From: Promethearchaeati archaeon
GTDB taxonomy: Archaea > Asgardarchaeota > Heimdallarchaeia > JABLTI01
Length of the DNA: 38,398 nt
Assembly (NCBI GenBank): GCA_013166835.1
Contig: JABLTI010000047.1
Span: 1 to 38,398, forward strand
Direction: 5' to 3'
Part shown: piece by piece, positions 838-38,398 of the stretch
How positions within the stretch are numbered: the stretch's first letter is position 1
Layout: every line of letters starts with the position of its first letter
Translations under genes and position numbers: made by a program
The notes under the pieces: model-generated
Told to the model about the DNA's origin: nothing
Database searches by the model: none
The model's input: only the letters and a program-made list of their open reading frames with translations

Positions 838-1704
838 TTAGTTCATAACCTCAACAGAAAGATTATCATTAGTTTCTTTCAAGATTTTACTAATTTCTTG
901 TACATGACCATAACCTAAAACTACGACAACATTGTTGTATTTCGTAATTACTTTGAGTATTTGTTTTGACATGAAGATATTTCGATCTTCTAATAGGATA
1001 GAATATAATTGAGGAAAGTTTTGATTAAAAACAGATAATATTGACTCGAGTGATTCTTGATCTTTAAAAATCTCTATCACTTCATTTAGATTAATTTCTT
1101 CCTCATCTTCAAGCTCATTAAAATTCTTTAGTGGTTCGCTTAGTGGCAAATCATCTTGATTTAATGGTTTAGCGACTATTTTTTTGTCGTACATGAGTTC
1201 GTCAATAAGTTGTTGGAATTTTGCAGCTTCCTCTCCAGACACTTCTTCCTCGAGAACTTTACTTATGTCTTGAATGGATCGATCAATGAGAAATATTGCA
1301 GCACCTATTTTTTTTGCTAATTTATAGGCAATTAGCATTTCCCTACCAGGTTGATCAGTATGTGTCAGACGTGCTAGTTCACTCTCAAAAAAACCAATAT
1401 CCTCTAAAACTGTTGCGAAATCTTGTTCATAATTGAATGTTGTTTTTTCTTCTTCATCTTCTTCTTTTGCTACAGACACATCATTAGTATCCTTAGTAGT
1501 TTCGTGTTTAGCAGATAATTCAGTAGTTTCATTTTCCAGTAGCGCTTTTAATCGATATTCATCTAATTCCAAACAAACTGCATCAGGTTTAACTTTTTCA
1601 AGAATTCTGGATACTTTTTCTTGACTTTCAGAATCAATATGTGTTATGCCAATTATAGTTACTTTTGCCAAGATATGAACACTTTCCAGAATAATTCTAA
1701 TCAT
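838..1704 (-). CDS. TraB/PrgY family protein
   Basis: TraB-domain protein. The family includes the enterococcal pheromone-shutdown protein PrgY and uncharacterised archaeal members, and shares a fold with Tiki/GumN-type proteins. The N-terminal motif VTIIGITHIDSES and the LELDEYR strand-turn carry the conserved His and Glu, and GYGHV near the C-terminus carries the second conserved glycine/histidine site. An acidic, low-complexity insert (about residues 60-90) interrupts the domain. The first ATG overlaps the stop of the upstream minus-strand gene by 8 bases, so the pair is translationally coupled; a TTG 11 codons in (LAKVTIIG) is an alternative start. No membrane segment is evident, unlike many TraB proteins. 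The substrate is unknown. Confidence 0.8.
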   Translation of the reverse strand: MIRIILESVHILAKVTIIGITHIDSESQEKVSRILEKVKPDAVCLELDEYRLKALLENETTELSAKHETTKDTNDVSVAKEEDEEEKTTFNYEQDFATVLEDIGFFESELARLTHTDQPGREMLIAYKLAKKIGAAIFLIDRSIQDISKVLEEEVSGEEAAKFQQLIDELMYDKKIVAKPLNQDDLPLSEPLKNFNELEDEEEINLNEVIEIFKDQESLESILSVFNQNFPQLYSILLEDRNIFMSKQILKVITKYNNVVVVLGYGHVQEISKILKETNDNLSVEVMN

Positions 1705-2908
1705 AACTAATTGATGCGGGGAGGTTTTTTAATTGATGTGTCCATTTCAAGACTGATTTCAATATATGTTTTATGTTAATTTTACTTTCATTTGATTTTA
1801 TTCTTTCAACAAAGGATATGAATAGTAACAGAGAGATTTGTCTTGGAACTGTAGAGGAATAATTAAGAACAAATTCATCTTTGCCCAACCTATTCACAAT
1901 AATTGTGGTAACCCATTGAGAGATATTACCAAGTAATCTTAATCCATCTTCTGTAAAAATAATGCTAACACCGTTTTCTTCGATAATCATTGGACTTAAG
2001 CTACCAAAAATCATTTTCTCGAAATCTTCAAGAATGTAATTTAAATCATCGGAATTAATTTTTGAGATATCATTTTTAGCTCCATAAATCTCACTAAAAC
2101 CTAAGATCGCAGATATGAATGGTCTAGAGCTACAATTGAGATGTTTCTTTAAAGCTTCAAATGAATCAGGAAGTTCATTTTCCCATTGTGCATATGCAGT
2201 TTCACTAAGATGATCATGGGTAGACTGGTCAAATATCATTTTAGGGATTTTACGCCAAATTTTCTCATCATCTACTGAGTAGAGTTCCTTTAGGATTTTA
2301 ATCTTGATAGTTTCGAGCTTGAATATAAGAAATCGTATAATGTCATAACTCCGATCAATATCATCAGGATTTACCCTTATGTATTGATGAGCACGACCAA
2401 TTGCGATTAGACGAGAAATCAATAATATTGCAGCTCTCATCTCAATCTCAATTCTATTTATGTGTTTATTTGATAGTTTTTGATCAGAAAGAAATGTTGT
2501 TAGTCTAGTAATTTTATTATCTAAATTATTCTTTGTTTTCATATCGCTTGAAATTCTTAGAAGTTCAGATAGTTTCCCAGAAATTTTTTCACTTTGTGGT
2601 AAACCCAAGTTTATTGACTCAAATTTAATGAAATCTTGAACCAAATCTCTTGATATAAGATATTTCAATAGTGAATATGCTTCTTGAACGTCTAGCTCCT
2701 CAATTATTTCATGCTTATTGCCTTTAGCTACAGATGCTGAGAACAGCATTAATACTTGAGGAAGACCAAGTTTCTTCACAACGTCATTAGTACTCACTTT
2801 TGAAAATTCATTGAGTAGTTTTTCCAATTCCTTTCTTGCGTCTTTTGAGTATTGTTTTGTTGCCACTTCAGCAATATCATCAAAAGTGCTATCAATCATT
2901 TTAATCAC
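1697..2908 (-). CDS. Unidentified helical protein with a lid-like segment
   Basis: Not recognised. It is almost entirely helical and soluble, 403 aa. Residues about 155-200 (RAAILLISRLIAIGRAHQYI followed by VNPDDIDRSYDIIRFL) resemble the C-terminal lid of MCM/AAA+ ATPases, where an Arg-Ala-His-Ala helix is followed by 'the D-region helix'. No Walker A or B motif is present, so it is not an ATPase itself. It overlaps the TraB-family gene by 8 bases, implying a two-gene operon transcribed away from the DUF47 gene. The 117-base divergent intergenic region is the likely promoter. The lid resemblance is pattern recognition only; it could equally be a histone-like helical bundle. Confidence 0.7.
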   Translation of the reverse strand: MIKMIDSTFDDIAEVATKQYSKDARKELEKLLNEFSKVSTNDVVKKLGLPQVLMLFSASVAKGNKHEIIEELDVQEAYSLLKYLISRDLVQDFIKFESINLGLPQSEKISGKLSELLRISSDMKTKNNLDNKITRLTTFLSDQKLSNKHINRIEIEMRAAILLISRLIAIGRAHQYIRVNPDDIDRSYDIIRFLIFKLETIKIKILKELYSVDDEKIWRKIPKMIFDQSTHDHLSETAYAQWENELPDSFEALKKHLNCSSRPFISAILGFSEIYGAKNDISKINSDDLNYILEDFEKMIFGSLSPMIIEENGVSIIFTEDGLRLLGNISQWVTTIIVNRLGKDEFVLNYSSTVPRQISLLLFISFVERIKSNESKINIKHILKSVLKWTHQLKNLPASISYD

Positions 2909-3109
2909 AACTCAACTTGCATAACTTAATTTGCTTCTAGTTCTTTCAAATTCTCTAGTCTTTGTAATACCTACTCTTTTTAATAAACTATTTTATTATC
3001 TAGACTATAGGATTTTGAAAATCCTATGTTACCTAAAAGGTTAAAAAGTAGAACCCATCGCTTGCTCTTAGAAATCAAAAACAACAATAACTATACAGGA
3101 AGCAAAAAA

Positions 3110-3763
3110 ATGGTTTATCATACAAATGGTAACAACGTAGAGAAAAAAGTTTTAGACATAATTCTAGATCACACAAGAGTTGTGCTTAATGGAACAGAAA
3201 CATTAACAAAAATAGTTGATTGTTGGAAAACAACTGGTCGAGATAAATTTAACAAATATATTAAGGATCTAGATTCTTTGGAATCAAAAGCAAATTCCCT
3301 AAAAAACAGTGCGATGAAGGAAATTACTGATGCAGGACCAGCATTATTATTCAGACAAGAATTAATACAAATAATTAGATCTACAGATCAGATTATTGAT
3401 CTTGGTCAAGGGGCTGCTTTTTTCTTACAACAACTAGATAATGAATGGGTTCCTCCAACAAATTTCGTTAAGAATTTATTAGCACTAATCGAGAAAACCC
3501 GTATTGTATCAAAATCATTGACTGATTTACTAAGAGCACTTTTCCAAAGCTTGGATAAAGTGATTGAAATCTCTGAATCTATTGAAATTATGGAAAACAA
3601 AGCAGATGCAAATTACCGTGCGTTAATCATTGAACTTGCTAATATGGATGCACAAAAAGGAGTTAATTTGTTCATAAGAGAAGCTGTTGATAGAATTGAA
3701 GATATGGTAGATTCAGCTAGAGATGTTGCATCATATATTCGTATTTATGCTATGTCTCGATGA
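3110..3763 (+). CDS. DUF47/PhoU-like helical protein
   Basis: All-helical protein of the DUF47 (TIGR00153) family, related to the phosphate-signalling protein PhoU. Members usually sit beside Pit-type phosphate transporters, but none is present here. Typical features are the repeated amphipathic helices, the E-x-x-A-D motif (MENKADANYR) and the C-terminal DRIEDMVDSARDVASYIRI helix, which carries the acidic metal-binding pattern of PhoU proteins. I start it at ATG 3110 (MVYHTNG) because AGGAAG lies just upstream; the frame continues to 3026 but those 28 residues look unlike the family. Length from this start is 217 aa, normal for DUF47. Confidence 0.8.
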   Translation: MVYHTNGNNVEKKVLDIILDHTRVVLNGTETLTKIVDCWKTTGRDKFNKYIKDLDSLESKANSLKNSAMKEITDAGPALLFRQELIQIIRSTDQIIDLGQGAAFFLQQLDNEWVPPTNFVKNLLALIEKTRIVSKSLTDLLRALFQSLDKVIEISESIEIMENKADANYRALIIELANMDAQKGVNLFIREAVDRIEDMVDSARDVASYIRIYAMSR

Positions 3764-35913: not shown

Positions 35914-35951
35914 GTTTATATATAAAATGTTCTGAACTTTATATCGATATA
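35914..35951 (+). promoter_or_regulatory. Promoter and palindrome of the nrdR-nrdD gene
   Basis: A strong TATA box (TTTATATATAAA, 35915-35926) predicts transcription starting around 35943-35948. Exactly there lies the 12-bp palindrome TATATCGATATA (35940-35951). A dimeric DNA-binding protein on it would block initiation. It does not match the bacterial NrdR-box consensus (CwATATATwG core), so which factor binds is open. Confidence 0.5.
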
Positions 35952-35967
35952 CAAGATGTTGTGTTTA

Positions 35968-36072
35968 GGGGAAAAAATACCACTAGGAATGGTATGCTCT
36001 GGTTAGTACCAGAACCACTTTAAATAGCCTAGAATGGGTGCCAATCCCCGAAAAAATGACCAAAAGAGGTCA
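35968..36072 (+). ncRNA. Structured 5' leader, riboswitch-like
   Basis: The leader before nrdR-nrdD can form: P1 GGGGA (35968-35972) with TCCCC (36045-36049); P2 ATACCA (35977-35982) with TGGTAT (35990-35995), loop CTAGGAA; P3 TCTGGT (35998-36003) with ACCAGA (36008-36013), loop TAGT; a pseudoknot from the P2 loop CTAGG (35983-35987) to CCTAG (36028-36032); and a last hairpin TGACC (36057-36061) with GGTCA (36068-36072). All pairs are Watson-Crick. It is GC-richer than flanking DNA. It matches no riboswitch class I can recall (cobalamin, purine, SAM, THF and fluoride considered). A nucleotide or cofactor sensor is a guess from context. Confidence 0.5.
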
Positions 36073-36100: not shown

Positions 36101-38398
36101 ATGAAGTGCCCGTATTGTCAGTCACCAAACACTCGAGTTGTTGACAAACGATTATCTGACGACATGAAAGTAAATCGCAGAAGAAGAGAATGTCTCCAAT
36201 GTAATAAGCGATTTACCACCTACGAACGAGTAGATGATGTCAAACTTTCTGTTATCAAAAAGGATAAGAGAAGAGAACCTTTCAGTCGAGACAAAATGAA
36301 ATCCGGCATTGTTAGAGCTTGCGAGAAACGACCCATTAGCATGGAAGAAATCGATGAAATAGTAGATGAAATCGAGAGCGAACTAAGAAAATTAGAGGAA
36401 ACAGAGATTGATGCTCAAATCATCGGCGAGAAAGTAATGGAGAAACTTCGCGAACTTGATGAGGTCGCTTATATTAGATTTGCTTCTGTTTATAGACGGT
36501 TCACTGACTTAGCTTCTTTTGAAAGAGAATTAGAGAAATTGAAGGTAGTTAAAGAGATCCAAGTGAAAGGACAAGATTCCACTGAACTTCTATTATTAGT
36601 TTCAGGTGACACCAAAGAAGAAATCTCAGGGTGGAATCGAGCTAAAATCACAGCAGCATTAATCAAAGAAGCTGGATTAGAAAAAATGGATGCAGAATCA
36701 ATTGCAGCAGAAGTAGAACGCAAAATATTCGCATCTGGGATCGATGTTATTTCTGTTGATTTAATTAGAAGCTTAGTAGACAATGAACTCTTTGTAAGAG
36801 GATTTGCTACAAAACTCTTACAACAAAGAAGCATTGGTATACCAACTTATGATTTGAATCAATTAATTCATTCAAAGAGTAAAGAAAATAGCAATGTTGT
36901 AGCAAATAATCCCGAAGCAGTTAATCTAGCTATTGCTGAAACAATCTTGAAGAAATACGCTTTACAAGAAATGTTTTCTCCAGAAGTGGCAAATGCTCAT
37001 CGAAAAGGTAAGATATATTTACACGATCTTGGCTTTCCAGTCAGGGTGTATTGTTCTGCACACAGTTTGGAGTACATCAAGAAATATGGGTTAAATTTGT
37101 TGAATCTTTCAACTGTTTCAAGCCCAGCCAAACATGCAGACACACTAACAGGTCATCTCAATACGTTCCTTGCGTCAATGCAAGCCTATTATGCAGGTGC
37201 ACTAGGTCTCGCTTACCTTAACATCTTCTATGCCCCATTCTTTGTAGGGGTTCCATATGAGCAAATAAAACAAGAAGCTGTTCCAAATTATCTAAAGGAT
37301 ATTCCAGCAATCGGCCCAGGTGGAAAATACACTGGCAAAACCTATGGTGAATATGAAAAAGAAACACAACTTTTTGCTAAAGCACTCATGGATGTTTGGT
37401 TGGAAGGAGACGCTCAAGGAAAAGTCTTTCCATTTCCTAAATTTGATCTTCATATTGATCAGAGTTCCTTTGATGACAAAGAGCAATTAAAATTACTCAA
37501 GCATGCTTGTAAAATTGCCTCTGAGAATGGATCGACCTACTTCATATTTGATAGAGATGAAGTGAATCTCTCCATGTGTTGTCGATTAAAGACTACAATC
37601 AAAGACATGTATATGATCGAGCATCCTGAAAGTATGAGATATTGTGGGTTCCAAAATGTAAGCATAAATCTACCACAAGCAGCCTATCGAGCTGGCAAAG
37701 GAAAAATCAAAGACTGTATTGAAGAAATTAAAGCAGCCATGGATATAGCTATGCAAGGCCATTTAGAAAAGAAAGAATTTATCCATCAGCTCATGACTCA
37801 AGAACGAGGTACTCTCTGGCAAATAGGAAAAATTGCAGAAGATGGTAGACCTTATGTTGACTTAGAAAAGGCAACCTATATTATCGGGGTAATTGGACTC
37901 AATGAATGCGTCCAATATTTAATTGGAGAACAAATGCATGAAAGTGAGAAAGCATACAAGCTTGGATTAAGAATCATTGCAGGTATGAATCTCAAAGCAA
38001 AAGACTTACAGGAAAAGAACGGTATAACTGTAACCTTAGAAGAAACTCCAGGAGAAAGTGCCCCATACAAATTCGCAAGAACAGATATTCAAGAATACCC
38101 TGATAGCATCCATTATGTGAAAGGAGATATTGAAGAAGGAGCGATATACTATACCAATAGTGCCCACTTTGCAGCAGATGCTCAAATAGACATTATTGAT
38201 CGAATCTCCAAACAGGGTAAATTTAACACCTTAATTGAAAGTGGATCTATCACTCACATTTTCATAGGTGAACAGAAGATATCTTCTGAATCAATATTAA
38301 ATCTAGTGAAGAAAACTTGGGAAAATACCCAGAGCGCACAAATTGTTTTCTCACCAGAATTCACAGTCTGTCAAGATTGTGGAAAATTAAGTAGGGGT
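36101..38398 (+). CDS. NrdR-NrdD fusion: repressor domain plus anaerobic RNR (partial)
   Basis: One frame of 766 codons runs from ATG 36101 off the window with no stop. Residues 1-44 are the NrdR zinc ribbon (Cys3, Cys6, Cys31, Cys34; RRRRECLQC, RFTTYERV). Residues ~48-140 are the NrdR ATP cone (VIKKDKRREPFSRDKM, then ELDEVAYIRFASVYRRF). A complete NrdR normally stops near residue 150; here it continues through a second, NrdD-type cone (~160-235, GWNRAKITAALIKEAGL) into the class III ribonucleoside-triphosphate reductase: HRKGKIYLHDLG (~302-313), HLNTFLASMQAYYAGALG, YCGFQNVSINLPQ (~514-526), and CQDC (757-760), the first pair of the C-terminal zinc site. The glycyl-radical loop lies beyond the edge. 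GGAAG stands 8 bases before ATG. Confidence 0.92.
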   Translation, partial: MKCPYCQSPNTRVVDKRLSDDMKVNRRRRECLQCNKRFTTYERVDDVKLSVIKKDKRREPFSRDKMKSGIVRACEKRPISMEEIDEIVDEIESELRKLEETEIDAQIIGEKVMEKLRELDEVAYIRFASVYRRFTDLASFERELEKLKVVKEIQVKGQDSTELLLLVSGDTKEEISGWNRAKITAALIKEAGLEKMDAESIAAEVERKIFASGIDVISVDLIRSLVDNELFVRGFATKLLQQRSIGIPTYDLNQLIHSKSKENSNVVANNPEAVNLAIAETILKKYALQEMFSPEVANAHRKGKIYLHDLGFPVRVYCSAHSLEYIKKYGLNLLNLSTVSSPAKHADTLTGHLNTFLASMQAYYAGALGLAYLNIFYAPFFVGVPYEQIKQEAVPNYLKDIPAIGPGGKYTGKTYGEYEKETQLFAKALMDVWLEGDAQGKVFPFPKFDLHIDQSSFDDKEQLKLLKHACKIASENGSTYFIFDRDEVNLSMCCRLKTTIKDMYMIEHPESMRYCGFQNVSINLPQAAYRAGKGKIKDCIEEIKAAMDIAMQGHLEKKEFIHQLMTQERGTLWQIGKIAEDGRPYVDLEKATYIIGVIGLNECVQYLIGEQMHESEKAYKLGLRIIAGMNLKAKDLQEKNGITVTLEETPGESAPYKFARTDIQEYPDSIHYVKGDIEEGAIYYTNSAHFAADAQIDIIDRISKQGKFNTLIESGSITHIFIGEQKISSESILNLVKKTWENTQSAQIVFSPEFTVCQDCGKLSRG

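Follow-up and report, generated by a model that had tools for sequence, protein, structure and literature searches.

A gene of Heimdallarchaeota that joins NrdR in frame to an anaerobic ribonucleotide reductase, with a conserved double NrdR box and a separate glycyl-radical domain

RESULTS

NrdR and NrdD in a single reading frame

The stretch of DNA analysed here (the window) is the entire contig C115, 38,398 bases long, from a genome of 3.56 Mb in 260 contigs that is 84.75% complete; in named records the same gene belongs to Candidatus Heimdallarchaeota. A single forward-strand frame runs without a stop from an ATG at 36101 to the contig end at 38398, which cuts the gene. We also considered a GTG at 36038 as the start and rejected it, as the siblings L028 and L033 have a stop three codons before the conserved ATG. 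An earlier note on this DNA had proposed that the frame encodes a full NrdR with its four ribbon cysteines, fused without an intervening stop to a second ATP-cone and NrdD, and had suggested a domain search on the whole protein. That search matched the NrdR, ATP-cone and NRDD profiles in one protein, i.e. PF22811 at residues 1–42, PF03477 at residues 50–136, a second, weak cone and PF13597 at residues 262–762, with TIGR00244 (NrdR) at 193.8 bits (cut-off 124.65) and TIGR02487 (NrdD) at 330.3 bits (cut-off 326.35). The N-terminal NrdR with cysteines C3, C6, C31 and C34 and the uninterrupted frame were both borne out. The second cone and NrdD are likewise present, but the cone is degenerate and NrdD is incomplete, owing to the contig end, a 28-residue gap and the absence of a glycyl-radical domain even in complete siblings. 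Since it shares one frame with NrdD, the NrdR part does not meet the membership criterion of a separate small protein. Within the 84.75% of the genome that is available, the fusion is the sole NrdR and the sole NrdD, besides two short pieces that match only the NrdD end.

Among 228 genomes screened from the phylum, a full NrdR above the family cut-off was found solely in this Heimdallarchaeota genus, in seven of its nine genomes and always in one frame with the following part; the two genomes without it are 64% and 69% complete, and one of these has an NrdD end cut by a contig edge. Six aligned copies have a common in-frame junction, and neither a lost stop nor a false join in the assembly can explain the junction of the window, which recurs in six further genomes of the genus. 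The earlier note had advised looking for the fusion in relatives and would have been refuted had the two parts always been separate there; the fusion does recur, although most relatives outside its clade have adjacent separate genes.

The glmS gene lies immediately upstream of the fusion wherever the contig reaches far enough for the 5′ neighbour to be read, and downstream follow a radical-domain gene, a redoxin with a CPNC-like motif, nrdG and a topoisomerase IB-like gene. NrdG (TIGR02495) is above the cut-off in eight of the nine genomes and stands directly downstream in the operon where this is visible. In the genome of the window, the end of the redoxin gene, nrdG and the topoisomerase-like gene lie at the edge of another contig, C126, and we infer that the operon copy of the radical-domain gene probably falls in the gap between the two contigs. 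From a reading of its sequence, the topoisomerase IB-like gene after nrdG is of eukaryote type (L028–L031 and L033). No match to PF02867, the large-chain domain of class I/II enzymes, was found in the nine genomes, and the fusion enzyme may therefore be their only reductase.

Contact residues and selection in the NrdR module

The zinc ribbon (residues 1–42; 36101–36226, forward strand, as for all coding features below) contains the zinc cysteines C3, C6, C31 and C34 and is followed by the ATP-cone (residues 50–136; 36248–36508); the contact residues of both were mapped by alignment to the Streptomyces coelicolor structure 7p37. In the S. coelicolor protein, arginines 12, 26–29 and 37 hold the DNA backbone, whereas D15 and R17 read bases (PMC9110341). 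All of these residues (R12, D15, R17, R26–R29 and R37) are present in the window at S. coelicolor numbering and are invariant in the six aligned fusions. The nucleotide contacts described for S. coelicolor, V48, K50, R51, E56, F58, K62, F124, V127 and Y128 (PMC9110341), map with an offset of +3 to V51, K53, K54, E59, F61, K65, F127, V130 and Y131. Two conservative swaps occur in the window cone (S. coelicolor R51 to K54 and K69 to R72), and F127 is a tyrosine in L028 and L033. Between these two siblings the dN/dS values of ribbon and cone are 0.038 and 0.060 respectively, indicating strong purifying selection, and the ribbons of the window and L030 differ by no amino acid at a dS of 0.57. The linker and second cone are looser, with dN/dS values of about 0.08–0.16 in the computable pairs and a few lower.

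The NrdD part and the second cone

The catalytic domain (residues 262–762; 36884–38386), delimited by PF13597, TIGR02487 and motif positions, has an NSN flap at residues 263–265 and the motif MCCRL at 492–496, so that the criterion of an NxN flap and active-site cysteines is fulfilled. Between it and the NrdR cone lies the degenerate second cone (residues 178–231; 36632–36793), which matches PF03477 with 25.4 bits over profile positions 13–68 of 88 and has no nucleotide-binding hairpin part. A Woesearchaeota contig, L110, which is 55–58% identical, has a separate nrdR; the NrdD encoded after it carries both a full cone (72.6 bits) and the same weak second one (26.8 bits). The fusion lacks the full NrdD cone, and its only full cone is that of NrdR. 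It occupies the place of the enzyme's own full cone and so probably takes part in the control of activity by dATP, an allosteric role that we infer. In NrdD, dATP is known to pair the cones and to keep the NxN flap out of the active site, which inhibits the enzyme (PMC12662201).

An AlphaFold2 model of the sibling L106 (mean pLDDT 72, pTM 0.61) places NrdR first, then a linker at residues 148–177 predicted to be disordered (pLDDT <50; 36542–36631 in the window), a second cone of helices only and the NrdD barrel. Foldseek matched the body of the model to NrdD structures in the PDB and its first 148 residues to E. coli NrdR. Because the model was built with 31 sequences, we take it to support the domain boundaries only.

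All complete siblings have 28 conserved residues, CSQNAFSRGGQTLF among them, that are missing from the window copy. This in-frame loss falls at 37279/37280, where the alignment of the fusions shows QRLIYSCSQNAFSRGGQTLFVDFNIHLG in the siblings and where the DNA junction was compared with L030. Either a deletion in the strain or an error of assembly could account for it, and as assembled the window copy may be inactive.

The glycyl-radical domain is encoded separately

The window ends at 38398, shortly after the first CxxC (CQDC; 38369–38380) of a C-terminal zinc knuckle; the stop is seen only in siblings, and the five complete sibling fusions end directly after this CxxC. They match TIGR02487 only to about position 537 of 581, and the membership criterion for a class III NrdD of a glycyl-radical loop in the same chain is not met. 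Instead, separate ORFs of roughly 70–100 residues encode the second CxxC together with the glycyl-radical loop (CPxCGS...SRVVGYF); most genomes of the genus have three such ORFs, and in that of the window two are visible. One copy directly follows the fusion, before nrdG. Readthrough or a frameshift joining it to the fusion was rejected for the genus, as this ORF has its own ATG and lies in a different frame in the siblings checked (L028, L029 and L030). Only PF13597, at positions 520–561, exceeded the cut-off for the small ORF, and the criterion for a pyruvate formate-lyase-type Gly_radical domain was unmet. The two copies in the genome of the window, G000, are off the operon, at L251 (contig C59, 5396–5647) and L252 (contig C94, 3067–3309), and an exact-pattern scan found no double NrdR box near either. 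One of the two stands beside two small genes that resemble roadblock-domain proteins.

The same split is seen in related and unrelated NrdDs next to NrdR (L110, L235, L237, L131, L133 and rumen Spirochaetia). At the rumen Spirochaetia loci L116–L120 (e.g. L116, 7607–8113), an NrdD without a glycyl-radical domain is followed by a separate ORF that combines the radical domain with a thioredoxin-like domain.

A conserved double NrdR box at the promoter

A TATA-box-like element, TTTATATATAAAA, is located at 35915–35927 on the forward strand, and TTTATATATA or a similar sequence has the same place in most siblings; its promoter role is inferred. Just downstream are two imperfect palindromes, box 1, ATACAAGATGTTGTGT (35949–35964), and box 2, CCACTAGGAATGGTAT (35980–35995), neither assigned to a strand, which are 31 bp apart from start to start with a 15-bp spacer. 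Such a pair is kept upstream of the ATG with the same spacing in all seven fusion genes. The flanking upstream sequence has largely diverged, yet the boxes with their exact spacing are retained in seven species. Each window box has a C at position 4 and a G at position 13, corresponding to the critical pairs at 9/18 and 40/49 in the S. coelicolor boxes (PMC9110341), and the spacer is within the range of 14–17 bp bound by NrdRs of several phyla (PMC12051234).

When the window was scanned for box pairs, this one scored 22.6 of 28, the best in the 38 kb, with a maximum of 20.9 in 30 shuffled windows; in each sibling locus the promoter pair was again the best-scoring one. The scan used what we take to be the published bacterial NrdR consensus, with weights set by hand. 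Searched genome-wide in the fusion-carrying genomes, an exact double-box pattern was found at the fusion promoters only, plus one copy in G057. Because this pattern was drawn from the genus itself, it is the bacterial-consensus scan that provides the independent test. The extra copy in G057 (L029, 3559–3605) lies between the radical-domain gene and the redoxin/nrdG genes and was seen in no other genome. Pairs scoring about 22–25 by the same consensus precede most of the archaeal nrdR genes scanned (L112, L113, L124, L126, L129, L131, L132, L133, L167, L235 and L238), which belong to Woesearchaeota, Nanoarchaeota, Aenigmatarchaeota and Thermoplasmata. There are exceptions to this rule, as Bathyarchaeota, L116 and L236 have lower scores. 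An Rfam search for a leader RNA element gave nothing credible.

Origin and distribution of the fusion

A maximum-likelihood tree of 52 NrdDs united the Heimdall fusions with three fusions from DPANN archaea (G269, G354 and G382) and L110 in one clade (support 100/100), which sat on a long branch and away from every other Asgard NrdD included; the placement of L110 within it had support of 84/56. The DPANN fusions related to the Heimdall ones share their junction, and transfer between DPANN and Heimdall archaea is likely, in a direction that remains open. A second kind of fusion, in which the NrdD cone is retained, was found in L113 and G436. The idea that the fusion is widespread was rejected, most such loci consisting of adjacent separate genes. 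A viral origin was rejected as well: a search of viral contigs with close patterns gave no match, and the NrdDs of phages lack the NrdR part and extend over about 69% of the query at most.

In the DPANN phylum, NrdR exceeded the cut-off in 263 of 371 genomes, mostly alone, and long NrdR frames occurred in five genomes among the matches listed. The 263 genomes contrast with papers that call NrdR rare in archaea. In one of the DPANN fusions, L236 (contig C67 of G354, 1361–3697), the NrdD joined to NrdR is degenerate, with the NxN flap, CC pair, SRGGQ region and CxxC all lost. No other NrdD match was found in that genome, and an enzyme part may here have become a regulator. In a different family belonging to the class of the window, the C-terminal part of an NrdR with an internal stop was found (L008, contig C499 of G038, 1501–1662), perhaps decaying or misassembled.

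DISCUSSION

Given these data, we read the gene product as an anaerobic ribonucleotide reductase large subunit that has a functional NrdR at its N-terminus, represses its own operon, uses the NrdR cone in control by dATP and depends on a separate glycyl-radical protein for catalysis; we put the probability of this reading at about 0.65. The NrdR of other organisms forms a DNA-binding tetramer with dATP plus ATP and larger, non-binding assemblies with ATP alone (PMC9110341). By analogy, a high ratio of dATP to ATP would make the NrdR cones pair, and the zinc ribbons would bind the two boxes that overlap the operon start, shutting off the enzyme's own transcription. Catalysis would require the separate radical protein of about 80 residues, activated by NrdG and replaceable after oxygen damage, an idea that we offer on the model of YfiD; its assembly with the fusion is inferred.

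The earlier note had considered the NrdR part as an allosteric module, as a DNA-binding autorepressor or as both, and the sequence is compatible with either role. Autorepression has specific support, in that all DNA-contact residues are kept and a correctly spaced double box is present in seven of seven promoters, and it is the best reading because the window boxes are the best pair in 38 kb. The enzyme probably switches off its own gene, DNA binding and repression both being inferences. Repression of its own operon is better supported than direct allosteric coupling, which is less certain because of the disordered linker and the degenerate cone. Against our reading stand the lack of any binding, expression or activity data for the fusion and the different oligomeric states of the two parts, a tetramer for active NrdR and, as described, a dimer for NrdD, so that a DNA-binding tetramer formed by the fused chain is unproven. 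A chain with both NrdR and NrdD could let one dATP signal act on gene and enzyme. More tentatively, and with rather less than even confidence, we suggest that a single dATP-binding event closes both levels, the pairing of the cones setting the ribbons on the operator and holding the catalytic domain inactive. Spare enzyme would then become repressor, with the radical domain as a separate, multi-copy, exchangeable subunit.

It is also conceivable that the NrdR part now serves only as an allosteric or oligomerizing domain and that the boxes either survive from an earlier, separate repressor or belong to another regulator. The NrdR cone is indeed the protein's sole full cone, and dATP-driven cone pairing does inhibit other NrdDs (PMC12662201). 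We nevertheless consider this unlikely: allostery has no need of the DNA-contact residues, which do not vary within the genus, purifying selection on the ribbon is strong, the boxes persist with exact spacing in seven species despite much diverged surroundings, and no other NrdR was found in the genome. Somewhat less plausible again is a single translated chain from which free NrdR, acting as the repressor, is released by proteolysis of the linker or by partial translation. The linker, predicted to be disordered, does lie at the natural C-terminus of NrdR, but no stop or frameshift signal was seen, and purifying selection, albeit weaker, extends over the linker and second cone. Hardly any weight can be given to an artefact by lost stop, chimaeric assembly or contamination. 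In the window, the gene is truncated by the contig end and shows the 28-residue gap, for which an artefact is still possible; for the fusion itself this explanation is refuted by an identical junction in six more genomes, in one case on a 383-kb contig, by glmS immediately upstream where the 5′ neighbour is readable and by the related DPANN fusions with the same junction.

If the fused chain does repress its own gene, close relatives of eukaryotes would possess a metabolic enzyme that doubles as its own transcriptional repressor. That NrdR and the reductase both sense dATP through an ATP-cone is known, but from separate proteins; here sensor, repressor and enzyme form one chain with a conserved operator. 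The same protein is a glycyl-radical enzyme whose radical domain is obligatorily separate. For YfiD, roles with other radical enzymes have been suggested and not shown (PMC8683613), and the present case bears on this open suggestion of spare-part radical proteins for enzymes besides pyruvate formate-lyase, which is now directly testable. We found no description of the fusion or of the split NrdD in the open-access papers searched, which does not prove its absence from the literature.

When compared with known systems, the module shares with NrdR (TIGR00244; S. coelicolor 7p37, 7p3f and 7p3q, E. coli 9fvr and 9fxk) the zinc ribbon and ATP-cone, the DNA- and nucleotide-contact residues and a double box with a 15-bp spacer, but those NrdRs are separate proteins of about 150–200 residues, whereas this one is covalently joined to the reductase. 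With the NrdDs of Prevotella copri and Streptococcus thermophilus, which have an N-terminal ATP-cone, it has in common the NrdD fold (by Foldseek), the NxN flap, the CC pair and nrdG in the operon; here, in contrast, the full cone comes from NrdR, together with a zinc ribbon, the second cone is degenerate and the glycyl-radical domain is off the chain. GrcA/YfiD of pyruvate formate-lyase is likewise a small, separate glycyl-radical protein that could be swapped in after oxygen damage (PMC8683613), but the small ORF found here matches the NrdD C-terminus (PF13597) and not pyruvate formate-lyase, and the fusion itself lacks a radical domain, which would make the small protein indispensable. Finally, the nrdR-nrdD-nrdG operons of Bathyarchaeota, Woesearchaeota, Thermoplasmata and others consist of the same genes, arranged alike, and often have similar double boxes, but in those operons nrdR and nrdD are separate genes.
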